Shown here piece after piece: positions 7,134-40,999 of a stretch of DNA of 64,000 nucleotides. The notes below the pieces were generated by a model. That model searched no databases. It was given only the letters and a program-made list of their open reading frames with translations, and had not been told where the DNA came from. The translations under genes were made by a program, and so were the position numbers. How positions within the stretch are numbered: the stretch's first letter is position 1; the number at the start of each line of letters is the position of its first letter. This DNA comes from Methylobacterium sp. NMS14P (GTDB lineage: Bacteria; Pseudomonadota; Alphaproteobacteria; Rhizobiales; Beijerinckiaceae): positions 478,520 to 542,519 of the forward strand of contig NZ_CP087107.1 in the NCBI RefSeq assembly GCF_028583545.1, in the 5' to 3' direction.

Positions 7134-8063
7134 TCACATTTCGACGTCGTTGAGGAAGGCGGCCAACACCTGCGCGGTTGGAAAGGCTTCGAAGGCCCCG
7201 AACTGGCAGGCCGTCAGCGCACCGCAGGCCGCAGCCTGCCGCAGGGTCGCGTCGAGGGGCTCTCCTGCGAGTAGGCCCGCGATCAGCCCGGCCGTGAAAG
7301 CGTCCCCTGCGCCGACCGTATCGACCGCCGTGACCACGAAGGCCGGCTGGCGTAGGGGGGGCAGTCCAGCCCGGAACGCCATCGCGCCACGCTCTCCCAG
7401 GGTCACCACCAGCAGTTTGAGGCCGCCGGAGAGCAGGGCGGCAATGGCCGGCGTCGCGGCCGTGGCGTCAGAGATGGCGTCGGGGGCTCCGAGGCCGAGG
7501 CCGGCGGCCTCGACCGCATTGACGACAAGGATCGCGGTATCGGCCAGGATTGCCGGGTCGATGGGGCGCATCGGGGACGGATTCAGCAGAGTGGGGATGC
7601 CCGACATCCGAGCGAGAGCGAAGGCCGCTCGGATGGAGACGTCCGGCGATTCGAACGTCGCCGCCACGAGGTCCGCTCGCCCGAGACGGGCGGCGACGGC
7701 TCGGACGTCCTCCGCACCGAGGGCGAGGTTGGCCCCGAGGCAGACCGCTAGACAGTTCTCGCCGGCGGAGTCGACGAACGCGACGCCGGCGCCCGTCGAG
7801 CCGGCATGCGGCACCAGCATATCCTCGGAGAATCCGACCTGCGCGAAGGTGGCGCGGACCATGGGGGAGAACACGTCCGTGCCGACGGCGAAAAGTCCGT
7901 CCACCGTGATGCCGAGCTGGTGCGTAGCGAGCGCGAGGTTGAAGCCCTTGCCGCCAGGTTCGGCCAGGAAGGCCAAGCCATCGAGGGACTCGCCCGCCTG
8001 CGGCAGCCGCGCGACCTTGACCGAGCAGGCAATCACAAAGCTTCCAATGACGAAGAGGCGCAT
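7134..8063 (-). CDS. PfkB-family carbohydrate kinase (ribokinase-like)
   Basis: This 309-residue cytoplasmic kinase phosphorylates a sugar or nucleoside with ATP. It carries PfkB signature 1 near residue 38 (GGKGFNLALA) and signature 2 near residue 250 (DTVGAGDAFTAGLIAGLL), where the Asp is the catalytic base. The substrate is not readable from sequence; ribokinase-like sugars are the usual choice. It is divergent from a GntR/UTRA regulator across a 53-base gap, which strongly suggests it is the regulator's target. Confidence 0.9.
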   Translation of the reverse strand: MRLFVIGSFVIACSVKVARLPQAGESLDGLAFLAEPGGKGFNLALATHQLGITVDGLFAVGTDVFSPMVRATFAQVGFSEDMLVPHAGSTGAGVAFVDSAGENCLAVCLGANLALGAEDVRAVAARLGRADLVAATFESPDVSIRAAFALARMSGIPTLLNPSPMRPIDPAILADTAILVVNAVEAAGLGLGAPDAISDATAATPAIAALLSGGLKLLVVTLGERGAMAFRAGLPPLRQPAFVVTAVDTVGAGDAFTAGLIAGLLAGEPLDATLRQAAACGALTACQFGAFEAFPTAQVLAAFLNDVEM

Positions 8064-8116
8064 GGAGCGCTCCGAACCTGTACAATGTAAGCATCTGTAC
8101 CGGAGGTCGATCGGAC
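8064..8116. promoter_or_regulatory. Divergent promoter/operator region of kinase and GntR genes
   Basis: The gap has a perfect 10-bp palindrome, GGAGCGCTCC, at 8064-8073 directly before the kinase ATG, and it overlaps that gene's ribosome binding site. It also has two direct copies of CTGTAC at 8078-8083 and 8095-8100, 17 bp apart. TACAAT at 8081-8086 could serve as a -10 box for the GntR gene, whose RBS is GGAGGT at 8102-8107. The repeats are seen; their use as GntR operators is inferred. Confidence 0.5.
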
Positions 8117-8926
8117 GTGCGCCCCAAAAATCGGACGATAAAGGGTGTGGTTGAGGCGGACCTCGTGGAAGGCGAGCGTCCCTCGGTGCTCTCTCTCCTC
8201 CGCCTGCGCGCCGACACGGCGATGCCGCTGTACCGGCAGATCGAGGGCCAGCTACGCGAACTCATCCTGTCGGGCTCGCTGCCACCGGGCGTCACTTTGC
8301 CGGCCGAGCGCCAACTCGCCGACGGCCTCGGAGTCAGCCGCGTCACGGTCCAACGCGCCTATGCTGAGCTCAGCGACAACGAGCTGCTCGTACCGCGCGG
8401 GCGCTACGGCTTCCTCGTGCGCCGTCCCCCCGAGCCCGTGCGCCCGGGTATGGACCGGCTGAAGGGCTTCACGGAGGAGATGCGGGAGCTGGGGAAGATC
8501 CCATCCTCGCGCATCCTCGATCGGGCGGTCACCGAGGACCGCTCGATCGCATCGATCTTCGGCCTGCCCTCGACGGCCCCGTTCCTGCGTCTGACGCGTG
8601 TTCGCTCCGGCGACGGTGTGCCGATGTCGCGCGAGGTCGCCTGGTACAACATCCGCGCCGTGCCCGCCCTCGAGACCGGCGACCTCTCCGGTTCCGTCTA
8701 CGCCTTCCTGAACGAGCACCCGGGCGGCCGTCTTGTGCGCTGCGAGCAGACGGTGGAGGCGACCATGCCGACGGCGGACGAGTGCGAGACCTTTGCCTTC
8801 GAGCAGCCCCTCCCGTGCCTGCTGATCAAGCGCCACAGCTACAACCAGGACTCGGTGATGATCGAGTACGTGGAAGGCCTGTTCCGAGGCGATGCCTATC
8901 GCTATCGGCTCAATCTGCGGGCGTAG
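8117..8926 (+). CDS. GntR-family regulator with UTRA ligand domain
   Basis: This 269-residue regulator of the HutC/FarR subfamily has an N-terminal winged helix at about residues 37-105 (PLYRQIEGQLRELILSGSLP, then PAERQLADGLGVSRVTVQRA). A C-terminal UTRA small-molecule domain at about residues 120-265 includes LRLTRVRSGDGVPMSREVAW and ending YRYRLNLRA. The GTG start has GGAGGT nine bases upstream. Being divergent from the PfkB kinase, it probably controls that gene and senses its substrate or product. Confidence 0.92.
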   Translation: MRPKNRTIKGVVEADLVEGERPSVLSLLRLRADTAMPLYRQIEGQLRELILSGSLPPGVTLPAERQLADGLGVSRVTVQRAYAELSDNELLVPRGRYGFLVRRPPEPVRPGMDRLKGFTEEMRELGKIPSSRILDRAVTEDRSIASIFGLPSTAPFLRLTRVRSGDGVPMSREVAWYNIRAVPALETGDLSGSVYAFLNEHPGGRLVRCEQTVEATMPTADECETFAFEQPLPCLLIKRHSYNQDSVMIEYVEGLFRGDAYRYRLNLRA

Positions 8927-9201
8927 TATCCCTGACTCACCGGACTGGTCCAAGCTGAGCGCGAGTTTTCGGGCGCCCTGAACCCTCTAGGAGCGTGGAT
9001 GGCTCGCGCGTTGCAAGTGGCGAATCGAGCTTCTGACGCGTTGGCCGTGTGCAGTCTTGTGTCCGGCCTGTTGATACAGTCGTTCACGTTGAGTGCCGGC
9101 CCTGATGATATCCGCGAACTGGGTTCCCACTCTGCTTTGCGGGCTATGACGCCCTGGACGTTCGGCGGGATGTCCCAGCTCCCGGTCTGTCCGGTTCGCC
9201 A

Positions 9202-9778
9202 TCAACTCTCATCGTCCTCGCAACGTGAAAAAGTCTCCTCTGCGCGCTGTCGGGCGGCCGTAGCCGCTGGTGCGCGGTAGGCGCCGCCGCGGGTCATGAT
9301 CGCCCAGGCGACCCGCGCCGTGCGATCGGCCGCCGCGACAGTCACCGCGCGCACCGGCTCGCGCTGCAGCAGCGCCGGCAGCCGCGGGTCGACCGAGGTC
9401 AGCATTGCCTTCGCGCCGGATCAGGGAGGTCATGCCGACTACGAGCAGGCGGCGCAGGGAGCGGTCGCCCATGCGCGAGATCCGACCCAGTCGCTCCTTG
9501 CCGCCGCTGCAGTTCTGCAGAGGTGTCAGGCCCGGCAGGGCCGCGAACTGCCGACCGGAGCGGAAGCGCTCGGGCTCGCTCACCGAGGCGGCCAGCGCCG
9601 TCGCCGAGACGATGCCGACACCGGGGATCGTCGCCAAGCATCGCGGCAGCTTGGCGAAGAACGGCACGACCTGCGCCCGCCTCGAGGCTCTGCGAGCGAC
9701 GACATTCCCAACTGCATCGACGGCATGAACTCGGAAGACGCTCTTGGCCAGATCGATGCCGGCGGTAGTGATCTCCAT
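9202..9778 (-). pseudogene. IS110-family transposase relic, internally deleted
   Basis: The N-terminus (MEITTAGIDLAKSVFRVHAV) is that of an IS110 DEDD transposase. After about 45 residues it jumps straight to the C-terminal part (ATIPGVGIVSATALAASV, then LPGLTPLQNCSGGKERLGRI). About 180 residues in the middle, including most of the RuvC-like domain, are missing. A frameshift at about 9400 moves the last part (REPVRAVTVAAADRTARVAW) to another frame. The flanks 8927-9201 and 9779-10032 hold no gene I can support. The element cannot transpose itself. Confidence 0.85.
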
Positions 9779-10032
9779 GGGAGTGGCTCCTGCATCTGCA
9801 TGGCCGCTTCTTCGACAGCGACCACATCTCGGCACTCAGATGCCCTCAGTTGGAGCGGGAGCCATCCACCCCATCTGCTTCGGTTCAGGAGGCTGTCAGC
9901 CCGTTCTACGAGGGAGACGCCCCCTTCGTACAAGCCGGACTGTGGCGGTCCCACTGGTCCGCCCGGGCCTCGTGAAAGGTTGAGTTGCCTTACGCTCGAT
10001 TAAACCTTCTTGTTGTACCGCAGGACAGCCTC

Positions 10033-11565
10033 ATGGCGTCAACGAGGTCGATTGTGCTGCAGGGGAACACGTCGAACGCGCAGCGCGAGGCGCTTCGCCA
10101 ACAGGCGCTGACCGAGATTGCTCTCCTCGACACGCCGCCAGAGCGAGAGTTCGACGCGCTCGCCCAGCTCGCACAGCGCATGCTCGGTACAGGCATGTCG
10201 TCGATCACTCTGATCGACCCGGAACGCCAGTGGTTCAAGGCGCGGTGCGGCCCTTTGGCAGCCGAGACTCCGCGTGCGCAGGCCTTTTGCCCCGTCGTGT
10301 TCGAGACCGAAGAGCCGCTCACCGTGGCGGACGCGAGACTCGACCCCCGGTTCGCCGCGAGTCCTTTTGTCACGAGCGCTCCGAAGATCCGCTACTACGC
10401 CGGTGTGCCAGTTCGCGTCCGGCGCTCCGATGGCGACGCGATCACGATCGGTACGCTCTGCGTCCTCGACGAGCAGCCCCGCGAGCCGACGTCTACCGAC
10501 CTCGAGGTGCTCGCCGAGTTGGCCTGCATCGCGGAGGCCCTGATCGAGGCTCGTGCCGTGGCCCTACGCGCTGCTGAAGCGGCCGAGGAGCGCCGTCTGG
10601 CCGTGGACGGCTTGGAGCGCGAACGCCGGCAGTTCAAGCAGGCGGAGCGCATGGCCGACATGGGATCGTACCGCTACGATATCGAGAAGCAGACAACCTC
10701 ATGGTCGGACGGCGTGTTCGCCATTCATGAACTGCCGGTCAGCAGCGGTGTGCCGACTGGCGAGATCATGAACTTCTTTCCGGAGACCGATCGTGCCCTG
10801 TTCCGCGCGGCCGTCGGGCGCGTGCTGGATACGGGCGAGCCGTTCGAGATGGACGCCGACTTCGTGACAGCCAAGGGCAATGCCCGTCGCGTGCGATGCT
10901 CCTGCGAGATCGAGCTGGTCAAAGGCAGGCCCGTCGCCCTCATCGGCCTGATCCAGGATATCACCGAGCGGCACGGCTTAGAGAAGCGTCTCCGCCATCA
11001 GGCCCGCACCGATGACCTGACACAACTGGCCAATAGGGCCGAGTTTCATCGTGTCCTCGACGGACGGCTGCGTGAGGCGCGCTCTTCGGACGTCGACGTG
11101 GCTGTCCTCGTGATCGACCTCGACGGCTTCAAGAGCGTGAACGATCGCCTCGGGCATGCTACCGGCGACGACGTTCTGCGCCGCGTGGCCGAGCGGTTGC
11201 GTGCACCTTGCTACGCCGGCTGCTTTCCGGCGCGGCTGGGTGGCGACGAGTTCGCGATCCTGGCACCTGCCGCGTGCGACAGGGCGCACCTGACTGCGAT
11301 GGTGCAGCGTCTCTTGCACGACCTCGAGATCGTCGTGGACGGCCAGGGTCAGATCGCGCGGGTGACGGGAACGATCGGCCTCGCGTGGTCGCGAGAGGCT
11401 GGACAAGATCGAGACTTGCTCCTGCGCCACGCTGATGCGGCACTCTACGCCGCGAAGCGTAGGCAGAAGGGAACGGCTCAAGCCTACTCGACCGATCCGG
11501 ATCAGCGTGCCGCGCAGATTCACGGCGCGTCCGCTCTCGAGCTGGCCCCCAACCGACGCCTATGA
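10033..11565 (+). CDS. GAF-PAS-GGDEF diguanylate cyclase
   Basis: A 510-residue soluble protein predicted to make cyclic di-GMP. A GAF domain spans about residues 25-175 (LDTPPEREFDALAQLAQRML). A PAS domain at about 205-320 ends in the usual IQDITERH. The GGDEF domain covers about 335-490, with RTDDLTQLANRAEF and an intact active site in RLGGDEFAIL. No EAL domain or membrane segment is present, and no RxxD inhibitory site is obvious. The ATG at 10033 is preferred over a TTG at 9985 because AGGAC precedes it. Confidence 0.9.
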   Translation: MASTRSIVLQGNTSNAQREALRQQALTEIALLDTPPEREFDALAQLAQRMLGTGMSSITLIDPERQWFKARCGPLAAETPRAQAFCPVVFETEEPLTVADARLDPRFAASPFVTSAPKIRYYAGVPVRVRRSDGDAITIGTLCVLDEQPREPTSTDLEVLAELACIAEALIEARAVALRAAEAAEERRLAVDGLERERRQFKQAERMADMGSYRYDIEKQTTSWSDGVFAIHELPVSSGVPTGEIMNFFPETDRALFRAAVGRVLDTGEPFEMDADFVTAKGNARRVRCSCEIELVKGRPVALIGLIQDITERHGLEKRLRHQARTDDLTQLANRAEFHRVLDGRLREARSSDVDVAVLVIDLDGFKSVNDRLGHATGDDVLRRVAERLRAPCYAGCFPARLGGDEFAILAPAACDRAHLTAMVQRLLHDLEIVVDGQGQIARVTGTIGLAWSREAGQDRDLLLRHADAALYAAKRRQKGTAQAYSTDPDQRAAQIHGASALELAPNRRL

Positions 11566-11737
11566 CTTCGGTGGGTCGGTGTCGGACTGGCCGCTCGGGG
11601 TGGATCTTAGCCGACCCGCTTTCGGGCAGCGACGCGTGGAATGGGCAAGGTTCCCGTGCTCGCTTCCAACCCTTCGCAAGAGCTCAGAATGTCCGGCCAC
11701 ATGCTTCCCGGCCGAGCACGCTTGACGAGCCTATGAG

Positions 11738-12175
11738 CTATAACATCTCCTTTGGTGCAGCCTGGTGCTCCAAACCTTGAGCTTTGTCGAAGGACCGACG
11801 GGCGTCGACGATCAAGGGCCAATGCTCCCGTATCCAACCTGTAAAGCCTTCCAAAGCCGGTAGCAGGCTCGTGCCCATGGGCGTCAGTTCATACTCGACG
11901 CGCGGCGGGACCTCGGGGAAGTAGTGCCGCACGAGAAGGCCGTCTCTTTCCATGTTCCGGAGGGTCACGGTCAGCATGCGCTGCGTGATGCCCTCGATGC
12001 CATTCTTGATGGCCGAGAAGCGCAGCCGATGGCCGGGAACGATGCTCAGCAGCAACAGCGTCAGGATCGTCCACTTGTCACCCATCCGAGACAGTACGTC
12101 GTGCGGTGCGCAGGGTTTCAGTCGTGGACCTTGCTCTGTCTCCTCATAGTCGCGGCCGTACAGCGTCTTGGCCAT
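11738..12175 (-). CDS. HxlR-family winged-helix regulator
   Basis: This 145-residue regulator carries the HxlR domain (CAPHDVLSRMGDKWTILTLL ... GITQRMLTVTLRNMERDGLL ... PPRVEYELTPMGTSL). A cysteine just before the first helix is in the place used by redox-sensing members such as YodB and HypR. The start is set by GGAGGG six bases upstream. It is divergent from a glutathione S-transferase gene, so an electrophile- or redox-responsive repressor of that gene is the natural inference. Confidence 0.9.
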   Translation of the reverse strand: MAKTLYGRDYEETEQGPRLKPCAPHDVLSRMGDKWTILTLLLLSIVPGHRLRFSAIKNGIEGITQRMLTVTLRNMERDGLLVRHYFPEVPPRVEYELTPMGTSLLPALEGFTGWIREHWPLIVDARRSFDKAQGLEHQAAPKEML

Positions 12176-12186
12176 GGGTACCCTCC

Positions 12187-12203
12187 GTGTGCCTGACGCA
12201 CAC
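12187..12203. promoter_or_regulatory. Inverted repeat between HxlR and GST genes
   Basis: GTGTGC at 12187-12192 and GCACAC at 12198-12203 form perfect 6-bp arms around a 5-base centre, in the gap between the divergent HxlR and GST genes and close to the HxlR start. This is a plausible HxlR operator. The role is inferred from position only. Confidence 0.4.
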
Positions 12204-12275
12204 CTGCGTGCCGTCTTTCGCGAAAACCTTAGCGGTATACATGGGTAACCATTGCGCTGCGAGATGGTCGGAAGA

Positions 12276-12887
12276 ATGCTGCTGTACCAGTTCCGAAAGG
12301 GCACGAACCCGCGCCGGGTCATCATCTACTTGGCGGAGAAGGGGATCGATGTCCCGCGCTACGAGCTCGATTACGAGAATGACGAGCATCGCTCGCCGAG
12401 TTACCTGAACGTCAATCCATCCGGCCGGGCGCCGACCCTGGTGACCGACAGCGGCCTTGCGATCACGGACTCCGCTGCCATCGTCGAGTACCTGGAAGAG
12501 TGCCACCCGGACAGGCCGATGATTGGCACGGACCGAGCGTCGCGCGCGCGGGTCCGCTCTCTGGAGCGGCTCGGAAGCGACTTGGTCGCCCGTGGCCAGC
12601 TCTGGCTCTGGAACCGGACGGCCGCGTTTCCCGCGAAGGAGCCGAACCCCTCAAATGAGACCGCCGATCGGGCGCATCGCTACGTGTCGGAGCTGCTCGA
12701 CGTTCTGGAGCGAGAGATCGAAGAGAACCAATTCCTGGCCGGAGACCGACCAACCGTGGCGGACTGCACCGCCTTCACGATCTTCCAGACAGCGCGCGAA
12801 CGGTTCGACCTTCCTTTCGGTCAAGGGCATCCGCGACTGGACGCCTGGTATAAGCGCTTCCGGGCCCGGCCGAGCGCGGATTACTGA
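12276..12887 (+). CDS. Glutathione S-transferase
   Basis: This 203-residue soluble GST conjugates glutathione to electrophiles or reduces peroxides. The N-terminal thioredoxin-fold domain (about residues 1-78) includes NPRRVIIYLAEKG and the glutathione-binding pattern PSGRAPTLVTDSGLAITDSA. The all-helical C-terminal domain contains the capping motif FLAGDRPTVADCTAF. The ATG at 12276 (MLLYQFRKG) matches the usual family start; in-frame TTG and ATG codons at 12252 and 12264 are alternatives. It is paired with the divergent HxlR regulator. Confidence 0.9.
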   Translation: MLLYQFRKGTNPRRVIIYLAEKGIDVPRYELDYENDEHRSPSYLNVNPSGRAPTLVTDSGLAITDSAAIVEYLEECHPDRPMIGTDRASRARVRSLERLGSDLVARGQLWLWNRTAAFPAKEPNPSNETADRAHRYVSELLDVLEREIEENQFLAGDRPTVADCTAFTIFQTARERFDLPFGQGHPRLDAWYKRFRARPSADY

Positions 12888-12899
12888 GTGGAAGCCGAC

Positions 12900-13187
12900 A
12901 TGCCGCGCTCCTTCAAGGCGAGCCGCCTGACCTTCTGCATGCTGGTCTTCGCTGCCGTCTATCCGATCGTGACCGGATTGGCCTACCTGACACAGGCCGC
13001 CGCCCGCGACTGGGAGATCTGGCAGCGACACCTAGTCGTCGTTCCAATCATCGTGTGCGCGATGGTGTTCGTCATCATCCCGAACATCCAACGCCTGCTC
13101 GCTCACCTGTCCGAGCCCGCAAACCCGCCTTGCGCGCGCAGTCGCGAGGAGAACCGGGGAGGAACAGACGGCGGAGACGGCCCATGA
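12900..13187 (+). CDS. Small two-helix membrane protein
   Basis: A 95-residue protein begins MPRSFKASRLTFCMLVFAAV, has two hydrophobic segments (about residues 10-30 and 45-67), and ends in a charged, disordered tail. GGAAG precedes the ATG. It follows the GST gene by 12 bases and is probably co-transcribed with it. It resembles small DUF2798-like membrane proteins in layout, but I cannot confirm the family, and its function is unknown. Confidence 0.65.
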   Translation: MPRSFKASRLTFCMLVFAAVYPIVTGLAYLTQAAARDWEIWQRHLVVVPIIVCAMVFVIIPNIQRLLAHLSEPANPPCARSREENRGGTDGGDGP

Positions 13188-13930
13188 GGAAGACTGCATG
13201 GGCCGACTTCCCGTTTGGGGCAGAGATCCAGTTCATCCCGCGAGAGACGTGAGCAGCCGGAACTGCCTGTTGCAGCATATCCGTTACCGGGAAGCTCTTG
13301 TGTCATCGAAGGCGTCCGAGTTGGGTCGATAGGGGCCGTCCGCTTTTCCGGGCGACCTTCTCCGAAGCGGACCGGCGGCTCTCGGCCAGACTGCGTCACG
13401 CCGGATCGTCAGCACACGCAGGACCAGACATTCGGCTTGGCGCCCATCACGACCATTCGGCGATCAACGCCGGTATCCCGGAAGCGGATCTGGTCTCACG
13501 TTGGATACTGCGCTTCAGATGTGCGTGCAGCATCGTAAGACCCCGTCGTGCGGAGGCGTGCGGCCGGGAGAGTCTGCGGCTATCCGTTCGGAGAACAGCT
13601 TCAGGCCAGCGGGCGCGGCTCGGTGCTCGGTTCCGATCCCGCAAGAGGCGGCCGGGACTTTTGCAAGAAGTTCAAGACGTCACGCGATTGATCAAGCCGC
13701 CTTTCTGGAGCTGCACGCTTGGCGGGCGGCCTCTGCAAGGGAGCAGAAGTCAGTTCGATGGCAGGAGAGGTCGCGTCCTTGGCCTCGAGAACACTGGCGC
13801 ATCTGGGTCGCAGAAGGCGGTATGTCTGAGCGCCGTATGGATGCAGCCGATGGTCGCTCAAGCCCTCCCTTGAGAGCTCCCCCGTTTTAGGGATACTGGA
13901 TACATAATGCTCGTTCGGGAGAGGGGTCAG
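13188..13930. other. Long intergenic region before the Mo-hydroxylase/sox operon
   Basis: This gap of about 740 bases holds a palindromic repeat copy at 13321-13376 (listed separately). It also has an inverted repeat, CTCAAG at 13857-13862 and CTTGAG at 13869-13874, about 60 bases before the first gene of the operon. Frames running through it have no family resemblance. The operon promoter should lie in its last 150 bases, but I cannot fix the boxes. Confidence 0.45.
13321..13376. repeat. Palindromic intergenic repeat, copy 1
   Basis: The copy begins TTGGGTCGATAGG, followed by GTCCGCTT and, after a centre of about 20 bases, AAGCGGAC, which can pair as a stem. It aligns along its length with copies at 21158-21214, 22743-22798, 25408-25465 and 26759-26813. 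It lies downstream of the small membrane-protein gene. Confidence 0.65.
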
Positions 13931-14392
13931 ATGGCACGACTGAACGTCAACGGCGTCGTGCGTGAGGTCGATGCCGAGCCCGATACGCCTCTCCTCTGGG
14001 TTATCCGCGAGCAGATCGGGTTGACCGGCACCAAATACGGCTGCGGTATCGCCCAATGCGGCGCCTGTACCGTGCACATCGACGGGGCGGCCGTCCGCTC
14101 CTGCTCCGTGCCGCTCTCGGCGATCGAGGCGGGGCAGAAAATCGTCACGATCGAGGGGCTGGCCCCGGATGCCCGCCATCCGGTCCAGCAAGCCTGGGCC
14201 GAGCTCGACGTGCCGCAATGCGGCTTCTGCCAGCCCGGGATGATCATGGCCTCGGCGGCGCTGCTGGCGCAGAACGCGCATCCGAGCGAGGAGCAGATCC
14301 GTCAGGAGATCACCAACATCTGTCGCTGCGGCACCTACAATCGCGTCCTCGCGGGCATCAAGATCGCCGCCGAGCGCGGCCAGTCCGGCTGA
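13931..14392 (+). CDS. (2Fe-2S) subunit of isoquinoline-oxidoreductase-type Mo hydroxylase
   Basis: This 153-residue small subunit carries electrons from a molybdopterin hydroxylase. The first cluster is plant-ferredoxin-like ([15 protein letters not shown] plus a later Cys, about residues 40-70). The second is the helical cluster (CGFCQPGMIM and CRCGTYNR, about residues 100-140). All eight cysteines are present. The ATG at 13931 has GAGAGGGG upstream and matches the family start (MARLNVNG); the earlier ATG at 13907 does not. It is the first gene of an eight-gene coupled cluster that runs to soxA. Confidence 0.93.
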   Translation: MARLNVNGVVREVDAEPDTPLLWVIREQIGLTGTKYGCGIAQCGACTVHIDGAAVRSCSVPLSAIEAGQKIVTIEGLAPDARHPVQQAWAELDVPQCGFCQPGMIMASAALLAQNAHPSEEQIRQEITNICRCGTYNRVLAGIKIAAERGQSG

Positions 14393-14406
14393 CGGGGGGA
14401 GAGCAG

Positions 14407-16599
14407 ATGAGCGAATCCAAGGCCTCCCCGCAGGCCGCCCGCCCCAGCCGCCGCACGCTGCTTGCCGGCGCCGGTCTGTTCACCCTCGGCTTCCACATCC
14501 CGTTCCCCGCACGGGCCGCAACCCTCGACGCGGCGCCCGCCGCGCCGGAGGTGAACGCCTGGGTCGTGGTGAAGCCGGACGAGACCGTGGTGATCAGGAT
14601 CGCCCGTTCCGAGATGGGCCAGGGCACGCTCACCGGCCTCGCGCAGCTCGTCGCCGAGGAACTCGACTGCGACTGGGCCAGGGTCACCACCGAGTATCCG
14701 AGCCCGGGCCAGAACCTCGCCCGCAAGCGCGTCTGGGGCGACTACTCGACCGGCGGCAGCCGCGGCGTGCGCGATTCCCACGAGTACGTGCGAAGAGGCG
14801 GCGCCGCCGCCCGCACCATGCTGGTCGCCGCCGCCGCGAAGGGCTGGGGCGTACCCGCCGCCGAGTGCCGCGTCGAGCGGGGCGTGATCACCCACGGCCC
14901 CTCCGGCCGCAGCATCACTTACGGCGCCGTCGCCGCGGAGGCGGCCAGGATCGAGCCGCCGAAGGACGTGGTGCTCAAGGATCCGAAGGACTGGACCATC
15001 GCGGGCAAGCCGCTGAAGCGGCTCGACACCCTGCCCAAGCTCGACGGCAGCCAGGTCTACGGGATCGATCTCAAGCTGCCCGGCATGCTCAACGCCGCGA
15101 TCCGCGACTGCCCAGTCACCGGCGGCAGCGTGAAGAGCTTCGACGCCGCGGCGGTGTCGGGCATGCCCGGCGTAAAACGAGTCATCCAGGTCGGCGACAG
15201 CGCGGTCGCGGTGGTGGCCGACACGTTCTGGCGCGCCAAGACCGCCCTCGACGCCCTCCCGATCGTCTGGGACGAGGGACCGAACGCGCAGGTTTCCAGC
15301 GAGACCATCGCGTCGACCCTCCGCGAGGGGCTCGACGCCGAGCAGGCCTTCGTCGGCAACAAGGCCGGCGACGTGGCCGGCGCGCTGAAGGGCGCTGCCA
15401 AAGTGGTGGAGGCCGTCTACGGCGTGCCGTTCCAGAACCACGCCACGATGGAGCCGATGAACGCGACCGCGCTCTGGACGCCGGAGCGCTGCGAGGTCTG
15501 GACACCGACGCAGAACGGCGAGGCTGCACTGGCCGCGACGGCCGACGCCGCCGGGCTGCCGGCCACCTCCTGCGAGGTCTACAAGATCCATCTCGGCGGC
15601 GGCTTCGGCCGGCGGGGCGCCACGCACGACTGGGTGCGGCAGGTGGTGCTCATCGCGAGGGAGATGCCGGGCACGCCGGTCAAGCTGATCTGGACCCGCG
15701 AGGAGGACATGACGCATGGCCGGTACCACCCGGTCACCCAGTGCCGGATGCGCGCCGCCCTCGACGGGGACGGCAACCTGACCGGCCTGCACATGCGCAT
15801 CTCCGGCCAGTCGATCCTGGCCGCCATAGCGCCACAACGCATGGTCGAGGGTCGCGACCCGGTCACTTTCCAAGGTCTCAACCCCGGAGGACCGGAGGCC
15901 GCGATCGGCTACACGATCCCGAACATCCTCGTCGATCACGCGATGCGCAACCCGCACATCCTGCCGGGCTTCTGGCGGGGCGTGAACCTGAACCCGAACG
16001 CCATCTATCTCGAATGCTTCATGGACGAGCTGGCCCACGCCGCCGGCCAGGACCCGCTGGCTTTCCGGCTGAAGCTGATGGACAAACACCCGAAGCACCG
16101 GGCCGTGCTGCGGGCGGTGGCCGACCGGATCGGCTGGGCCAACAAGCCGCCGGAGGGCATCTACCGCGGCATCTGCCAGACGATGGGGTTCGGCAGCTAC
16201 GTGGCGGGCGCGGCCGAGGTCTCGGTCTCCGACCAGGGCGAACTGAAGATCCACCGTATCGTGGCGGCCACCGATCCCGGCCACGCGGTCAACCCGCAGC
16301 AGATCGACGCGCAGGTGGCGGGCTCCTTCGTGTACGGTCTCTCGGCCGCGCTTTACGGCGCCTGCACGGTCAAGGACGGGCGCATCGAGCAGACGAACTT
16401 CGACAGCTATCCCGTGATGCGAATGGACGCGATGCCGGCGGTCGAGGCCATCCTGATGCCGTCCGGCGGCTTCTGGGGGGGCGTCGGCGAGCCGACGATC
16501 GCGGTCGCCGCGCCGGCCGTGCTCAACGCGATCTTCGCGGCGACCGGCAAGCGCGTTCGCCAGCTGCCACTGAAGGACACGGATCTGCGCCGGGCATGA
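14407..16599 (+). CDS. Molybdopterin-binding large subunit, isoquinoline 1-oxidoreductase beta type
   Basis: This 730-residue catalytic subunit has a Tat signal (PSRRTLLAGAGLFTLGF), so the folded Mo enzyme is exported to the periplasm. It has the single-chain IorB arrangement of two aldehyde-oxidase/xanthine-dehydrogenase Mo-binding halves. Cofactor motifs include GGGFGRRGATHDWV and, near the end, GGFWGGVGEPTIAVAAP, whose Glu at about residue 695 is the catalytic base of the family. RBS GGGGGGAGAG precedes the start, 14 bases after the small subunit. Family substrates are N-heterocycles or aldehydes; here the substrate is unknown. The next gene overlaps its stop. Confidence 0.92.
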   Translation: MSESKASPQAARPSRRTLLAGAGLFTLGFHIPFPARAATLDAAPAAPEVNAWVVVKPDETVVIRIARSEMGQGTLTGLAQLVAEELDCDWARVTTEYPSPGQNLARKRVWGDYSTGGSRGVRDSHEYVRRGGAAARTMLVAAAAKGWGVPAAECRVERGVITHGPSGRSITYGAVAAEAARIEPPKDVVLKDPKDWTIAGKPLKRLDTLPKLDGSQVYGIDLKLPGMLNAAIRDCPVTGGSVKSFDAAAVSGMPGVKRVIQVGDSAVAVVADTFWRAKTALDALPIVWDEGPNAQVSSETIASTLREGLDAEQAFVGNKAGDVAGALKGAAKVVEAVYGVPFQNHATMEPMNATALWTPERCEVWTPTQNGEAALAATADAAGLPATSCEVYKIHLGGGFGRRGATHDWVRQVVLIAREMPGTPVKLIWTREEDMTHGRYHPVTQCRMRAALDGDGNLTGLHMRISGQSILAAIAPQRMVEGRDPVTFQGLNPGGPEAAIGYTIPNILVDHAMRNPHILPGFWRGVNLNPNAIYLECFMDELAHAAGQDPLAFRLKLMDKHPKHRAVLRAVADRIGWANKPPEGIYRGICQTMGFGSYVAGAAEVSVSDQGELKIHRIVAATDPGHAVNPQQIDAQVAGSFVYGLSAALYGACTVKDGRIEQTNFDSYPVMRMDAMPAVEAILMPSGGFWGGVGEPTIAVAAPAVLNAIFAATGKRVRQLPLKDTDLRRA

Positions 16600-16889
16600 G
16601 GGCGATGACGCCGACGCTCGCGCTGCTCGCCGCCCTCGCGGGGGGAACGGGCGCGTGCGCCGCCGGGATGCGGCCGCCGCCCGGCGCCTCGTCCTGTACC
16701 GGCTGCCACGCCGAGGGCTCCGCGATGGGCGTGCTCGCGGGACGGCCGGAAGCCGAGATCGTCGGCGCGCTCGATGCCTTCCGAACCGGCGCGCGCCCGG
16801 CGACGATCATGAACCGCATCGCCAAGGGATTCGACGCGCGGGAGAGTCAGGCCATCGCCGCCTGGTTCGCGGCGCAGGGATCGCGGTGA
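16596..16889 (+). CDS. Small periplasmic cytochrome c, FccA-like
   Basis: This 97-residue protein has a signal peptide and one heme site, SCTGCH, at about residues 29-34. A Met in the C-terminal half (about residue 72) could be the sixth ligand. The ATG overlaps the stop of the Mo subunit (ATGA), so translation is coupled. It is followed, again with overlap, by the flavocytochrome-c flavoprotein. It is therefore most simply the cytochrome partner of that flavoprotein, but it could also accept electrons from the Mo hydroxylase. Confidence 0.88.
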   Translation: MRAMTPTLALLAALAGGTGACAAGMRPPPGASSCTGCHAEGSAMGVLAGRPEAEIVGALDAFRTGARPATIMNRIAKGFDARESQAIAAWFAAQGSR

Positions 16890-18151
16890 TGCGCGCTCCT
16901 CCCTCTCCGACCCGCCGCGCCCTGATCGGCGGAGCCGCGGCCGCCGCGCTGGCGCGCCCGGCCCTCGGTGGCACAGCTCCGCGCGTCGTGGTCGTGGGCG
17001 CCGGGTTCGGGGGTGCCACGGCGGCGCGCTGCCTCGCCGCGGGCGGCGTCGACGTGACCCTGATCGAGGCGGCCGAGCGCTATGTCGCCTGCACGGGCAG
17101 CAACGCGGTCGTCGTTGGCCTGCGCGGCATCGAGGCCCAGACCTTCGGTTACGAGGCCCTCGGCCGAGCTGGACTGCGCTTCGTGCAGGGGATGGCGGAT
17201 GCGGTCGACCCGGTGGCGCGCCGGGTGACGCTCGGCGACGGCACAGTACTGACCTACGACCGCCTGATCCTCTCGCCGGGCATCGCGCTGCGCTTCGACG
17301 CGGTGCCGGGCTACGACGCGAAGGCCGCAGAGGTGATGCCCCATGCCTGGAAGGCCGGGGCGCAGACGGTGCTCCTCGCCCGCCAGCTCGAGGCCATGCC
17401 GGAGGGCGGCACGGTGGTCATCTCGGCGCCCGCCAACCCGTATCGCTGCCCGCCCGGCCCGTACGAGCGCGCGAGCCTGATCGCCCATTTCCTGAAGACC
17501 CGGAAGCCGAAGGCGAAGCTCGTCCTGCTCGACGCCAAGGACACGTTCTCGAAGCAGAAACTGTTCGAGGCGGCCTGGGCGAAACTGTACCCGGACGTGC
17601 TCGAATACGTGCCGCTCGCCTCGGGCGGTGCGGTCACGGACGTCGACGCCGCCGCGATGGTCGTTCGCACGGACTTCGCCGAGTACAGGGCCGATGTGGC
17701 GTGCATCATCCCGCCCCAGCGCGCCGGCCCCATCGCGGCGCAGGCCGGCTGCGCCGACCGCAGCGGCTGGTGCCCGATCGATCCGGTGACCTTCGAATCG
17801 CGCCTCGTGCCGGGCATCCATGTCATCGGCGACGCGGCGATCGCGGGGGCAATGCCGAAATCCGCCTTCTCGGCGAACGCGCAGGCCAAAGTCTGCGCGC
17901 AGGCGGTGATCGACCTGCTGGCCGGACGGGAGCCAGAGAGCCCGAAGCTCATCAACACCTGCTGGAGCCTCGTCGCACCGGGCAACGGCATCTCGATCGC
18001 GGGCGTCTTCCGCCCGACCGACGGTCTCCTGGCGGACGTTCCGGGAGCCGGCGGCATCAGCCCCCTCGACGCGCCCGACACGGTGCGCGCGCAGGAGGCG
18101 GCCTGCGGCGAGAGCTGGTACCGGACGATCACCCGGGACGTGTTCGGATGA
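16889..18151 (+). CDS. fccB: Flavocytochrome c sulfide dehydrogenase flavoprotein subunit
   Basis: This 420-residue periplasmic FAD enzyme oxidises sulfide to sulfur and passes electrons to a cytochrome c. It has a Tat signal (SPTRRALIGGAAAAAL) and an FAD Rossmann motif (VVVGAGFGGATAARCL). The redox-active disulfide cysteines lie in NPYRCPPGPYERAS and NTCWSLVAPGNGIS, and the C-terminal FCSD domain is present. The start overlaps the preceding stop (TGATG). The same flavoprotein appears as SoxF in Sox clusters, which fits the soxXYZA genes that follow. Confidence 0.93.
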   Translation: MRAPPSPTRRALIGGAAAAALARPALGGTAPRVVVVGAGFGGATAARCLAAGGVDVTLIEAAERYVACTGSNAVVVGLRGIEAQTFGYEALGRAGLRFVQGMADAVDPVARRVTLGDGTVLTYDRLILSPGIALRFDAVPGYDAKAAEVMPHAWKAGAQTVLLARQLEAMPEGGTVVISAPANPYRCPPGPYERASLIAHFLKTRKPKAKLVLLDAKDTFSKQKLFEAAWAKLYPDVLEYVPLASGGAVTDVDAAAMVVRTDFAEYRADVACIIPPQRAGPIAAQAGCADRSGWCPIDPVTFESRLVPGIHVIGDAAIAGAMPKSAFSANAQAKVCAQAVIDLLAGREPESPKLINTCWSLVAPGNGISIAGVFRPTDGLLADVPGAGGISPLDAPDTVRAQEAACGESWYRTITRDVFG

Positions 18152-18618
18152 GGGAAGGCCGCGTGGCCGCCATGCTCGTGCTGGCAGTCGCCGCCCCGCC
18201 GGCACGGGCCGGGGAGGGCCTTGTACCCATCACGATCGTCGGCGACGCCATCCCTGAGAGCCTGACGGGCGCGCCGGGCGATGCCGCGCGCGGCCGGGCC
18301 ATCGTCGTGGACCGGACCCGCGGGCTCTGTCTTCTCTGCCATACCGGACCCTTCCCGGAGGAGCGGTTCCAGGGCAACCTCGCCCCGGATCTCGCGGACG
18401 TCGGCGGGCGGCTGAGCTCGGGGCAACTGCGCCTGCGGCTGGTGGACGGACGGGCCTTGAACCCGGAGACGATCATGCCACCCTATTACAGCCTGACAGG
18501 GCTCACCCGCGTGGGGCGGGCGTGGCAGGGACGCCCGATCCTGAGCGCGGCCGAGATCGAGGATATCGTCGCCTTCCTGGCGACGTTGCGCGGGGCTGGT
18601 CCCGAGGAAAGCCGATGA
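18148..18618 (+). CDS. soxX: Sulfur oxidation cytochrome c SoxX
   Basis: This 156-residue periplasmic cytochrome is the small subunit of SoxAX, which attaches sulfur substrates to SoxY. It has a signal peptide ending APPARAGEG. The heme motif CLLCH is at residues 61-65, followed by the SoxX-specific FPEERFQGNLAPDLADVG, and the distal Met lies in NPETIMPPYYS. The ATG overlaps the fccB stop by four bases (ATGA). Confidence 0.94.
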   Translation: MREGRVAAMLVLAVAAPPARAGEGLVPITIVGDAIPESLTGAPGDAARGRAIVVDRTRGLCLLCHTGPFPEERFQGNLAPDLADVGGRLSSGQLRLRLVDGRALNPETIMPPYYSLTGLTRVGRAWQGRPILSAAEIEDIVAFLATLRGAGPEESR

Positions 18619-19100
18619 GCGGGCACAGGAGACGGAGCGCACGTTCGATGGACCGGCGCGGTGTGCTCGCCGGGGCTGTCGGCACCGCGCTCGCCGTCGC
18701 GCTGCGCCCCGCCGCCGCGGCGACGCTGCCGCGCACGGAAACGACCGAATCCGCCATCCGGCGCTTCGCGGGTGACAACCCGATCCGGCCGGGCCGGGTG
18801 ACCCTCGACCTGCCGCCGCTGGTGGAGAACGGCAATACGGTGCCGCTGTCTGTCGCTGTCGAGAGCGCGATGACGCCCGAGGATCACGTGCGCCGGATCG
18901 GGGTGTTCAACGAGAGGAATCCGCAGCCGAACGTCGTCACGGTCCACCTGCGGCCGGGCGCCGGCCGCGCGCAGGTCTCGACACGCATCCGGCTCGCCGA
19001 CACGCAGCGCATCACCGCCATCGCCGAGATGAGCGACGGGACTTACTGGTCTGCGAGCGCGGATGCCATCGTGACCCTCGCCGCCTGCCTGGAGGGCTGA
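18615..19100 (+). CDS. soxY: Thiosulfate carrier protein SoxY, non-canonical C-terminus
   Basis: This 161-residue Tat-exported protein (SMDRRGVLAGAVGTALAV) carries sulfur intermediates on a C-terminal cysteine. The fold matches SoxY throughout (NPIRPGRVTLDLPPLVENGN, then SAMTPEDHVRRIGVFNERNP). The expected C-terminal GGCGG arm is replaced by AACLEG: the Cys is kept at residue 158, but it is fourth from the end rather than third, and all four flanking glycines are not in place. Coupled to soxX by ATGA and five bases before soxZ. Confidence 0.93.
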   Translation: MSGHRRRSARSMDRRGVLAGAVGTALAVALRPAAAATLPRTETTESAIRRFAGDNPIRPGRVTLDLPPLVENGNTVPLSVAVESAMTPEDHVRRIGVFNERNPQPNVVTVHLRPGAGRAQVSTRIRLADTQRITAIAEMSDGTYWSASADAIVTLAACLEG

Positions 19101-19105
19101 CCCCG

Positions 19106-19426
19106 ATGGCCCGGACGCTGATCAACCTGCCGAAGACCGCAAAGCCCGGCGACACGATCACGATCAAGACCTTGATCTCGCACCCGATGGAGACGGGCTT
19201 CCGCCCCGGTGCCGACGGCCGGATCCTGCCGCGCAATATCGTGACGGACTTCGTCTGCCGCTTCGAGGACGAGGAGATCTTCCGGGCCGAGCTGTTTCCC
19301 GCTTCGGCGGCCAACCCCTACCTGACGTTCACCTGGATCGCGACGCGCAGCGGCCGCTTCAGCTTCACATGGCGCGGCGATGGCGGCTTCGATCAGACCG
19401 AGTCCGCGGCGATCACCGTGGCCTGA
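19106..19426 (+). CDS. soxZ: Thiosulfate carrier partner SoxZ
   Basis: This 106-residue protein with an immunoglobulin-like fold forms the SoxYZ heterodimer. It begins MARTLINLPKTAKPGDTITI, contains the family segment TLISHPMETGFRPGADGR, and ends FTWRGDGGFDQTESAAITVA. As usual it has no signal peptide and would be co-exported with SoxY through the Tat system. Confidence 0.95.
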   Translation: MARTLINLPKTAKPGDTITIKTLISHPMETGFRPGADGRILPRNIVTDFVCRFEDEEIFRAELFPASAANPYLTFTWIATRSGRFSFTWRGDGGFDQTESAAITVA

Positions 19427-19433
19427 GACCGCC

Positions 19434-20225
19434 GTGCCGCGCCGCTCGGTCTCCCTGCTGCCGACGGCTCTCGTGGGGCTGCTCCTCTCCAGCCCTGTCG
19501 CGCGGTCGGAGCCGATCCCACCGGCCGAGCGACACTCGGGCTTCGACCAGATGAGCCCCGAGATCCAGGCGATGCAGCGGGACGACGGGGCCAATCCCGG
19601 CATGCTCGCGGTCGCGGACGGGGAGGATCTCTGGGCGAAGGCGCCTCCTTCCGGCCGGCCCGCCTGTGCCGGCTGCCACGGCGAGGCCTTGTCCACGATG
19701 CGGGGCGTCGCGACACGCTACCCCGCCTGGGACGCCCGGACCCAGAAACCCATCGACCTTCAGGCCCGGGTCAACACCTGCCGGGGCGAGCATCAGGGCT
19801 TAGAGCCTCTCGCCTACGAGAACCCCGACCTGTTGGCGCTCACGGCCTTCATCGCCGCGCAGTCCCGCGGGCTGCCGATGACCCCACCGGATGATGTCCG
19901 GCTCGATCCCGCACGGGCCGAAGGCCGTGCGCTCTTCGAGGCGCGTCAGGGTCAGCTCGGTCTGTCCTGCGCGGTCTGTCACGACGATCATTGGGGTCGC
20001 CGCCTCGGCGCGGCGGTGATCCCACAGGGACAGCCGACCGGCTATCCGCTCTACCGCCTCGAATGGCAGGGTCTCGGCTCATTACAGCGACGCCTGCGCA
20101 ACTGCCTCACCGGCATGCGCGCCGAACCCTTCGGGTACGGGGCGCCGGAATACATCGCGCTCGAACTTTACCTCGCGACCCGGGCCGCCCCGCTGCCGCT
20201 TGAGACGCCGGCCGTGAGGCCCTGA
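19434..20225 (+). CDS. soxA: Diheme cytochrome SoxA
   Basis: This 263-residue catalytic subunit of SoxAX has a GTG start seven bases after soxZ and a signal peptide ending SSPVARSEP. Two heme motifs are present, CAGCH near residue 77 and CAVCH near residue 181, making it a diheme form. The active-site Cys is at residue 224 in LRNCLTGMRAEPFGYG, matching the RxCxxxxRAEPF family signature, and this Cys carries the persulfide and ligates heme 2. It is the last gene of the cluster; no soxB follows. Confidence 0.94.
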   Translation: MPRRSVSLLPTALVGLLLSSPVARSEPIPPAERHSGFDQMSPEIQAMQRDDGANPGMLAVADGEDLWAKAPPSGRPACAGCHGEALSTMRGVATRYPAWDARTQKPIDLQARVNTCRGEHQGLEPLAYENPDLLALTAFIAAQSRGLPMTPPDDVRLDPARAEGRALFEARQGQLGLSCAVCHDDHWGRRLGAAVIPQGQPTGYPLYRLEWQGLGSLQRRLRNCLTGMRAEPFGYGAPEYIALELYLATRAAPLPLETPAVRP

Positions 20226-24364: not shown

Positions 24365-25282
24365 GAGCCCGTCCGGTAAGGGTCTGAGGCGGGGTTGAGT
24401 GGCCGGGATGGCGATGATTCCAGGAGGGTGCTGAAGCCTGACCTGGAAGCGCCATGTGGACCCCGACCACCCGGCGGCAGCATAGCCGCGTGGGCCTTCG
24501 CTATGAAACCGACCTTACCGACGCCGAGTGGGCGGTGATCGAGCCACTGATGCCGAGGCCAGCGCCCTGTGGCCGGCCTCCGCTCTGGACGACACGGGAG
24601 GTCCTGAACGCCATCTTCTACGTTCTGAGGGGTGGGATCTCCTGGCGGTTGATACCCAAGGATCTACCGCCGCGCTCGACCACGTTCGGCTACTTCAGCC
24701 GCTGGCGCGACACAGGGCTGTTTGGCCGGATCAACCACCACCTGGTCATGGCCGATCGCGAGCGAGTCGGACGGGAAGCCTCACCGTCTGCCGCGGTCCT
24801 CGACAGCCAAAGCATCAAGACGACGGAGAGCGGCGGCCCGCGCGGCTACGATGCCGGCAAGAGGGTCAAGGGGCGCAAGCGCCAAGCGCTGGTCGACATG
24901 GACGGGCGCGCGCTCGTCCTCGATCCTCAGCCTGCCGACGTACAGGACCGCGACGGAGCCGTGCCGGTGCTGCGCCTGTCGCGTCGGACCTTCCCGTTCA
25001 TCGCCAAAGCCTTCGCCGATGCAGGCTATGCCGGCAACAGACCGGCGACCGCCACGATCATCACGGTCGAGATCGTGCGCAAGCCGCCCCATCAAGTCGG
25101 CTTTGCCGTGCATCCACGCCGCTGGGTGGTCGAACGCTTCTTCGCCTGGATCAGCCGCAATCGCCGCCTCTGGAAGGACCCAGAGGCGACTATCGCCTCG
25201 GCCAGAGCATTCCTCTACGCGGCAGCCGTCATGATCCTCGTCAGGCGACTGGCCCGCTCAGCCTGACTTCTCGGACGGACTC
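24365..25282 (+). mobile_element. IS5-family insertion sequence, IS1031-like, intact
   Basis: The element is about 918 bp and holds one full-length transposase. The left end reads GAGCCCGTCCGGTAAG. The right end, read inward, is GAGTCCGTCCGAGAAG, so the imperfect terminal repeats share GAG-CCGTCCG-AAG. TGA occurs immediately outside both ends (24362-24364 and 25283-25285), a 3-bp target duplication of the TNA type known for the IS1031 subgroup. It inserted just downstream of the SDR gene. No degradation is seen. Confidence 0.8.
24454..25266 (+). CDS. IS5-family DDE transposase
   Basis: This 270-residue transposase has the N-terminal DUF4096-like region (LTDAEWAVIEPLMPRP). The catalytic Asp is in AAVLDSQSIKTTE, the second Asp probably in the ADAGYAGNRP region, and the Glu in WVVERFFAWISRNRRL. 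The reading frame is continuous with no frameshift, unlike many IS5 relatives that need programmed shifting. It fills nearly the whole element. Confidence 0.93.
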   Translation: MWTPTTRRQHSRVGLRYETDLTDAEWAVIEPLMPRPAPCGRPPLWTTREVLNAIFYVLRGGISWRLIPKDLPPRSTTFGYFSRWRDTGLFGRINHHLVMADRERVGREASPSAAVLDSQSIKTTESGGPRGYDAGKRVKGRKRQALVDMDGRALVLDPQPADVQDRDGAVPVLRLSRRTFPFIAKAFADAGYAGNRPATATIITVEIVRKPPHQVGFAVHPRRWVVERFFAWISRNRRLWKDPEATIASARAFLYAAAVMILVRRLARSA

Positions 25283-38253: not shown

Positions 38254-38736
38254 TTGATCTCGTTCTCGGTCAACAAAGTCGATGTCCATGTCGACGCGCC
38301 CGGCGACACGCCGCTACTCTGGATTCTGCGGGGTCGGCTGGGGCTGACAGGCACCAAGTTCGGGTGCGGGATCGCGCAGTGCGGGGCCTGCACCGTCCAC
38401 GTCGATGGTCAGGCCCGGCGATCCTGCGTCACCCCGGTGGCGAGCGTCGGCGGCAGCGCCGTCACGACGATCGAGGGGCTGGCCGCGACAGCGGGTGCCG
38501 GCGGAGAGCTCCACCCGCTCCAAAAGGCCTGGATCGCGGCCCAGGCTCCGCAATGCGGCTACTGCCAGTCCGGGCAGATCATGCAGGCCGCGGCCCTCCT
38601 GAGCGAGAACCCCGACCCCTCCGACGACGACATCAGCCAGGGCATGGCCGCGAACCTCTGCCGTTGCATGGCCTACCTCCGCATCCGCAGGGCGATCAAG
38701 CTCGCGGCCAGGGCGCAGAACGGAGGCCGCGGATGA
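38254..38736 (+). CDS. (2Fe-2S) subunit of a second Mo hydroxylase
   Basis: This 160-residue small subunit has both clusters intact: [15 protein letters not shown] near residues 35-60, and [10 protein letters not shown] and [13 protein letters not shown] near 105-150. The TTG start has GGAGG eight bases upstream. It is paralogous to the subunit at 13931-14392. The ATG of the large subunit overlaps its stop. Confidence 0.92.
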
Positions 38737-40997: not shown

Positions 40998-40999
40998 GC

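Follow-up and report, generated by a model that had tools for sequence, protein, structure and literature searches.

We analysed a window of 64,000 nucleotides, meaning the whole stretch of DNA studied here, from Methylobacterium sp. NMS14P (contig NZ_CP087107.1, positions 478,520 to 542,519); it forms the end of this 542.5-kb contig in a genome of 6.88 Mb. Our subject is a run of eight genes in this window that joins a molybdenum hydroxylase of the IorAB type to soxX, soxY, soxZ and soxA. Start and stop codons, read directly, place all eight on the + strand between positions 13931 and 20225. The run opens with the iorA-like small subunit (13931..14392, 153 aa), which has two [2Fe-2S] domains (Pfam Fer2 and Fer2_2), and the iorB-like large subunit (14407..16599, 730 aa) with MoCoBD_1 and MoCoBD_2 domains. 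Two optional parts follow: a small c-type cytochrome (16596..16889, 97 aa) with one CxxCH motif and a weak Pfam match of 18.2 bits, below the cut-off of 27, and the flavoprotein of a flavocytochrome c sulfide dehydrogenase (FCSD; 16889..18151, 420 aa). The latter has both flavoprotein domains over cut-off, i.e. PF21706 (FCSD_central) and PF09242 (FCSD flavin-binding), with the one-CxxCH cytochrome gene directly upstream. Then come the cytochrome c gene soxX (18148..18618; TIGR04485 72.5 bits, cut-off 61), soxY (18615..19100), soxZ (19106..19426; Pfam SoxZ 79.6 with a cut-off of 25, TIGR04490 70.4, just below the cut-off of 76) and soxA (19434..20225; TIGR04484 211.5 bits, cut-off 110), which encodes two CxxCH motifs and has a GTG start, with an in-frame ATG at 19380. 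The junctions from iorA to soxA are +14, -4, -1, -4, -4, +5 and +7, exactly the four overlaps of one to four bases and the gaps of 14, 5 and 7 bases that the original prediction had described for eight same-strand genes.

The protein families named in that prediction agree with ours, except that its SoxY belongs to a separate group. This protein scores 212 bits against TIGR04487, the 'SoxY-related AACIE arm protein' (cut-off 172), and 100 bits against TIGR04488, the true SoxY, which is below the cut-off of 125. It is a member of TIGR04487 by the score and by its Ala-Cys arm, and the family name describes the arm only. The C-terminus reads VTLAACLEG, so that the arm AACLEG with the carrier Cys158 (19080..19097, + strand) replaces the GGCGG found at the end of thiosulfate SoxY. 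The predicted structure has the SoxY fold with its best match to 2oxg, the SoxYZ of P. pantotrophus, and its final residues form a low-confidence tail past the last strand, which suggests that a short arm with one cysteine is retained but differently built. Among named SoxY proteins, the nearest ones come from Methylobacterium. The carrier does not belong to the quinoprotein-associated fused SoxYZ family TIGR04557, since SoxY and SoxZ are encoded by separate genes and reach 58 and 33 bits, where the cut-off is 140. There are only two SoxY-family genes in the source genome.

The arm of SoxY goes together with the enzyme encoded next to it. We surveyed 90 SoxY loci, i.e. all TIGR04487 hits scoring 78 bits or more in 385 alphaproteobacterial genomes drawn class-wide with the window locus excluded, read each C-terminus and scored IorB and SoxB by tblastn (at least 150 bits) within 6 kb; distant GGCGG SoxY proteins are under-sampled because of the 78-bit threshold. 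Among the 41 loci with Ala before the arm cysteine, 32 have IorB and none has SoxB within this distance, versus 0 and 35, respectively, of the 49 loci with a Gly-Gly-Cys arm. The association gives a Fisher probability of 1.5e-16 ignoring relatedness, and as the genomes are related the counts are not independent events. The residue preceding the arm cysteine is Ala in all 33 Ior-linked SoxY proteins (window included) and Gly in all 35 SoxB-linked ones, and the two residues following it are mostly I/V/L then E/D in the former, as compared to G and G. Within 6 kb, the 32 Ior-linked loci encode SoxZ in 32 cases, SoxA in 30, SoxX in 26 and FCSD in 17. The constant core is IorAB plus SoxYZ, nearly always with SoxA and often with SoxX, and FCSD is optional. 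We also considered IorAB-FCSD-SoxXYZA as an indivisible unit and rejected it because 15 of the 32 linked loci showed no FCSD within 6 kb, a few of these stretches being cut by contig ends. A sixth locus with a GACS arm, in genome G125 (G and L numbers are our labels for genomes and loci), has IorB, and neither SoxB nor IorB was found within 6 kb of the other five (L238, L239, L241, L244 and L245), four of which adjoin SoxX and SoxA. Below the 78-bit cut, IorAB stands beside a GACGG arm in L253 and L254.

The linkage between IorAB and this type of SoxY is widespread. We scanned genome contigs with an alignment of 22 SoxY proteins of the AACIE-arm type, found a relative in 475 stretches and kept the best 80, which is not a random sample of SoxY since the query had the Ala-Cys arm; the arm was unreadable in two of them (L145 and L149). 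The gene run includes IorB in 74 of these best 80 of 475 loci, and five of the remaining six end at a contig edge. For the Methylobacteriaceae among them, IorB is present in 23 of 27 loci, and contig ends interrupt three of the four without it; many Bradyrhizobium share the linkage, as do Microvirga, Pseudolabrys, Rhodoplanes, Afipia and others. TIGR04487 is over its cut-off in 21 of the 385 genomes drawn class-wide and in 34 of 79 genomes of the window's genus. Among 20 other TIGR04487 genomes, 17 have IorB with soxXYZA, two (G093 and G071) are cut by contig ends and one (G091) has IorAB on another contig. Outside the class, a phylum-wide sample has iorA-iorB-soxX-soxY-soxZ-soxA in this order in four genomes (1.7-2.1 Mb) of another class. 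Since the order recurs in many families and one other class, and the six core genes are on one strand in all 91 loci where all six were found together, the arrangement is beyond chance. The possibility that it exists only in this strain, which had been set as a refutation of the tie between a xanthine-oxidase-family enzyme and Sox carrier genes, is ruled out by the linkage in many genera and in another class, and the tie itself is supported.

Searching the same 385 genomes with IorB, for which two candidates per genome were scored, gave 35 hits of at least 48% identity, followed by a gap to 46% and lower. 27 of the 35 are sox-linked on the same contig (one of them, in G066, with soxX and soxA as its only sox neighbours), contig ends split three more (G093, G071 and G147), and the remaining five are unlinked (G370:C87, G292:C63, G127:C175, G091:C24 and G200:C171). 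All five genomes with an unlinked copy hold an Ala-Cys SoxY elsewhere; as this SoxY has its own IorB in G370, G292 and G200, only G091 and G127 support the tie without linkage. On a 70-row IorB tree, the starred clade of the window copy covers 35 rows of which 29 are linked, and other linked IorB proteins (labelled f79, f83, f126, G091 and G200) are placed separately. Starred branches require the linked label to change at least 9 times, and some of these changes are losses; the tree is from a quick search and some placements rest on long branches. The IorB and SoxY distances correlate across 31 loci with r 0.80, against a maximum of 0.35 in 999 permutations, and shared species history contributes to this value. 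One could argue that two independent functions share one operon for regulation only, as tight spacing alone is no proof of joint chemistry and the flanking genes vary. The dichotomy between the arms and their partners, the linkage to several IorB lineages and the retention of both parts on separate contigs in G091 and G127 speak against this, and we consider it very improbable.

We looked for a fixed accessory gene that might name the substrate through an all-against-all comparison of the open reading frames (ORFs) in 29 regions, and no non-core family, antisense ORFs aside, was present in more than nine of them. The commonest non-core neighbour is an ABC-transporter-ATPase-like family, as judged by eye. 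In the distant IorAB-SoxYZ loci L089, L090, L091 and L250, a protein with an FGE-sulfatase domain and, by eye, a signal peptide is encoded nearby, and such a gene is near the f79 and f126 loci. It might hint at cysteine or sulfur chemistry.

The locus is similar to the canonical Sox system (SoxXABYZCD) in its SoxXA with a Cys-ligated haem, its SoxYZ carrier fold (2oxg) and its one carrier cysteine near the C-terminus. But the arm is AACLEG rather than GGCGG, and SoxB and SoxCD are absent from the locus with IorAB in their place. The whole source genome has no TIGR04486 match for SoxB at E 0.001, and no SoxCD is encoded among the eight operon genes. An ordinary Sox operon is ruled out by the arm and by the lack of a SoxB match in the genome. 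The original prediction had pictured the molybdenum enzyme as wired to a Sox carrier cycle; its link between this enzyme and a Sox carrier stands, but a Sox cycle with SoxCD swapped out is not supported, for these same reasons and because FCSD is optional (17 of 32 loci). SoxB is over its cut-off in two of the 21 TIGR04487 genomes (G122 and G361), in both cases near a GGCGG SoxY.

Bradyrhizobium gives a clue about thiosulfate. The soxY2 of B. diazoefficiens reportedly (Masuda 2010) lies in a second locus, which was likened to the one in green sulfur bacteria. In G361 and in five named Bradyrhizobium genomes, FCSD is grouped with SoxX, SoxY, SoxZ and SoxA and the arm is AACTE (6/6); five of the six also have a GGCGG SoxY. 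Sox locus II is probably the same locus type, and soxY2 is probably of the AACIE-arm system. According to the part of PMC5748708 used here, which cites the original study, soxY1 in sox locus I is the only one of the two soxY genes of B. diazoefficiens without which thiosulfate is not oxidised; soxY2 is recorded there as a second, non-essential soxY, and that part of the paper mentions neither the IorAB link nor the arm. If soxY2 is indeed of the AACIE-arm system, then thiosulfate is not oxidised by this system as it is expressed in that species, given that the soxY1 mutant fails on thiosulfate. We regard thiosulfate as an unlikely substrate.

An alternative hypothesis could be that IorAB replaces both SoxB and SoxCD and oxidises the sulfane sulfur held by SoxY, making the operon a complete oxidation pathway for thiosulfate or sulfide, and a new one in type. 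In its favour, the operon has SoxXA and SoxYZ, in which the catalytic positions tested are retained, FCSD is often there and SoxCD is likewise a molybdenum enzyme. However, enzymes of the xanthine oxidase family hydroxylate carbon, and the operon has no hydrolase to release sulfate. In addition, soxY2 of B. diazoefficiens, if of the AACIE type, neither supports thiosulfate oxidation nor is needed for it in the portion of PMC5748708 drawn on. An inorganic pathway of this kind seems rather improbable to us.

The IorAB pair itself is a member of the xanthine oxidase family, with its two [2Fe-2S] domains, its MoCoBD domains and Glu695 of IorB in a GVGEP motif (16489-16491), which we take to be the catalytic Glu and which is Glu in all 146 aligned sequences. 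The nearest solved structure by sequence is 8gy3_C (1.2e-77), the large subunit of the Gluconobacter aldehyde dehydrogenase. The predicted IorB structure (mean pLDDT 84.7, with low confidence near residues 70-74 and 397-405) matches it with E 4.9e-59, TM score 0.85 and 29% identity. The pair resembles isoquinoline 1-oxidoreductase, here a family name that implies no particular substrate, and the membrane-bound aldehyde dehydrogenase of Gluconobacter (8gy3) in subunit types, MoCo domains, catalytic Glu and a Tat-type start (twin-arginine SRRTLLAG, by eye). It differs from 8gy3 in that the window IorB is only ~29% identical to 8gy3_C, has no haem motif and carries the His441 typical of its main clade; no CxxCH motif was found in any of the 125 IorB sequences read. 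Position 441 (15727-15729) is His in 98 of 102 main-clade proteins and Arg in all 26 unlinked ones of less than 46% identity. It may match the active-site Arg880 of bovine xanthine oxidase, and if so the substrate pocket of the main-clade IorB may differ.

Could the sox genes serve the enzyme rather than its substrate? In such a case SoxXA, SoxYZ and FCSD would maintain the exported molybdenum hydroxylase, through resulfuration of Mo=S in the periplasm or removal of harmful sulfide, and the carbon substrate of IorAB would be unrelated to sulfur. FCSD is optional (17 of 32 loci), as a helper would be. There is also a parallel, as the part of PMC12997753 consulted describes a fused SoxYZ-like carrier that, with a SoxH-like hydrolase, stands repeatedly beside PQQ alcohol dehydrogenases, and lists disulfide formation, cofactor stability and protection from sulfur compounds as its suggested roles. 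The source genome has a copy of this arrangement. This TIGR04557 system, too, places a SoxYZ-type carrier beside a periplasmic oxidase of organic compounds, but its carrier is fused, its enzyme uses PQQ and the source-genome copy has an internal GGC arm. We observed that copy on the chromosome in L079, where a fused SoxYZ with an internal GGCSAP arm (9104-9958; quinoprotein type by eye) adjoins a SoxH-like metallo-hydrolase (10001-11005). Against such a service role, most xanthine-oxidase-family enzymes go without these genes (the source genome has 15 MoCoBD_1 matches and two SoxY-family genes), a second IorAB in the window (38254-40997) has no adjoining SoxY, and G066 retains IorAB and SoxXA without soxYZ. 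We find a service role unlikely. Within 38254-41599, the second pair takes up 38254-38736 and an ORF ending at 40997, and the ORF that comes next encodes two CxxCH motifs; this pair could usefully serve as a control, since its IorAB has no Sox carrier beside it.

SoxX and SoxA score over the cut-offs of TIGR04485 and TIGR04484, and SoxA keeps the two residues we mapped onto its active haem: Cys224 (20103-20105), which aligns to the haem-ligand Cys in an alignment to 1h31, and Arg220. Both are at least 90% conserved in two groups, 30 Ior-linked and 30 SoxB-linked SoxA proteins. According to the section of PMC4423706 used here, the counterpart of Cys224 in TsdA is the haem ligand and carries the intermediate; the paper describes the Arg corresponding to Arg220 as invariant in both TsdA and SoxA, and infers a similar mode of action for SoxA. 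The conservation of Cys224 and Arg220 suggests that the loading chemistry of SoxXA is probably kept and the unloading enzyme changed. Alternatively, SoxXA could mainly accept electrons from IorAB, with SoxYZ as a passenger or regulator and no carrier cycle at all; this would fit the lack of CxxCH in IorB (0/125 sequences read), the extra cytochrome missing from many loci and the retention of only IorAB and SoxXA in G066. On the other hand, soxZ is not followed by soxA in eight Methylobacterium loci (L119, L120, L121 and L123-L127) among the best 80 of 475, although all seven of those genomes that were searched (all but L124) carry a soxA at another place, and in 6 of the 32 linked loci no SoxX was found within 6 kb. 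SoxY and its cysteine are kept in nearly all loci, with the arm under a tight and distinct constraint. A role of SoxXA mainly in electron transfer is clearly improbable in our judgement.

Based on the above, we consider it very likely that IorAB and the Ala-Cys SoxYZ with SoxXA form one functional system, and that this system is not a SoxB-type thiosulfate pathway. Our leading proposal for its chemistry, to which we give a probability of roughly 0.4, is that SoxXA loads a sulfur compound of the thiol type on SoxY, IorAB oxidises its carbon, the electrons go to c-type cytochromes and FCSD takes sulfide. The eight genes would then encode a periplasmic Sox-like carrier system without SoxB. Judging by family, SoxXA would oxidatively join the sulfur compound to Cys158 of SoxY. 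The changed arm (Ala-Cys-Leu-Glu versus Gly-Cys-Gly-Gly) may be fitted to IorAB and no longer serve SoxB, as the pattern of arms and partners suggests. IorAB, with its Tat-type start, might oxidise a carbon of the aldehyde-like or heteroaromatic kind, either while the substrate is bound to the carrier or just after its release. Electrons could pass from its iron-sulfur subunit to the small cytochrome where present and otherwise to SoxX or others, and FCSD, where present, could take up the freed sulfide or persulfide. The physiological substrate would most likely be a small organosulfur compound rather than thiosulfate; its identity as an organosulfur or aldehyde compound is a guess.

Several observations weigh against this proposal. 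Enzymes of the xanthine oxidase family are not known to act on protein-bound substrates. In G066 the order is iorA-iorB-soxX-soxA with no soxYZ between, and this one-contig genome, rated 100% complete, has no SoxY match; IorAB and SoxXA may thus work without the carrier, or the locus may be decaying. Unless that locus is decaying, no other single observation speaks as strongly against an essential carrier as G066 does. Conversely, L108 of Methylobacterium sp. WSM2598 has soxXYZA without IorAB away from a contig edge, the only one of the six IorB-free loci among the best 80 of 475 for which this is so. Nine Ala-Cys loci in the survey lack IorB within 6 kb: two lie at contig edges, two (in G091 and G127) have their IorB on a different contig, and the other five are those with the GACS arm. 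The arm rule also has an exception in L250, below the 78-bit cut, where IorB adjoins a SoxY ending in SGCI, which is neither Ala-Cys nor GGCGG. Eight of nine distant linked IorB lineages have Arg instead of His441 and may use other substrates. The AACTE arm of soxY2 in USDA110 itself is inferred from its relatives, and PMC4423706, in the portion used, names a further invariant SoxA Arg outside the two residues mapped here. Finally, SoxC is over its cut-off (601 bits) elsewhere in the source genome, at C2:284573-285775, ~210 kb off on the same contig. We tried this SoxC as a partner of the operon and rejected it, as its neighbours (L080, ORFs 7157-14619), which by reading the proteins are cytochrome-like, flavin-monooxygenase-like, acyl-CoA-dehydrogenase-like and ABC-transporter-like, point to a separate locus. 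The last three of these make a separate organosulfur locus likely, and it looks like one for sulfite oxidation following sulfonate or organosulfur cleavage.

Around the operon, a weak promoter-like site lies upstream of iorA (13870..13897, + strand) with 9/12 matches, where 0.4 such sites are expected in the region, which is no proof of function. One terminator-like site was found, inside soxX, fewer than the 2.2 expected. The operon is flanked by a transposase of the IS4/5 type (by Pfam) at 24454-25266 and by a transposase-like ORF with an IS110-like look, by eye, at 9209-9835. No tRNA was found in the 64-kb window, and a plasmid search gave 7 weak matches, none with 80% coverage.

Among the papers listed in our searches of the open-licence literature, there was nothing on the function of the AACIE-arm family or its link to IorAB, nothing relevant that joins SoxYZ to isoquinoline-type oxidoreductases and nothing on soxY with iorB. 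What we describe is a re-use of Sox parts with a known enzyme family. The genes soxY, soxA and soxX are established markers of thiosulfate oxidation; where soxXYZA comes without a SoxB match and with the non-standard arm, the label of a thiosulfate oxidiser on these genes is probably wrong. Our comparison suggests that the cluster, found in many soil, plant and freshwater bacteria, is an overlooked periplasmic oxidation system, probably not for thiosulfate. By analogy with acyl carrier proteins we may speculate, doubtful as it is, that the Ala-Cys SoxYZ presents a thiol-linked organic substrate to the molybdenum hydroxylase in a carrier-tethered oxidation in the periplasm, with the residues around the cysteine setting the enzyme served (GGC-GG for SoxB and xAC for IorAB), and that a widespread pathway of heterotrophs has been mistaken for thiosulfate oxidation. 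Should the coupling prove catalytic, the SoxYZ carrier would have a second chemistry, and a molybdenum hydroxylase would receive its substrate in a new way.

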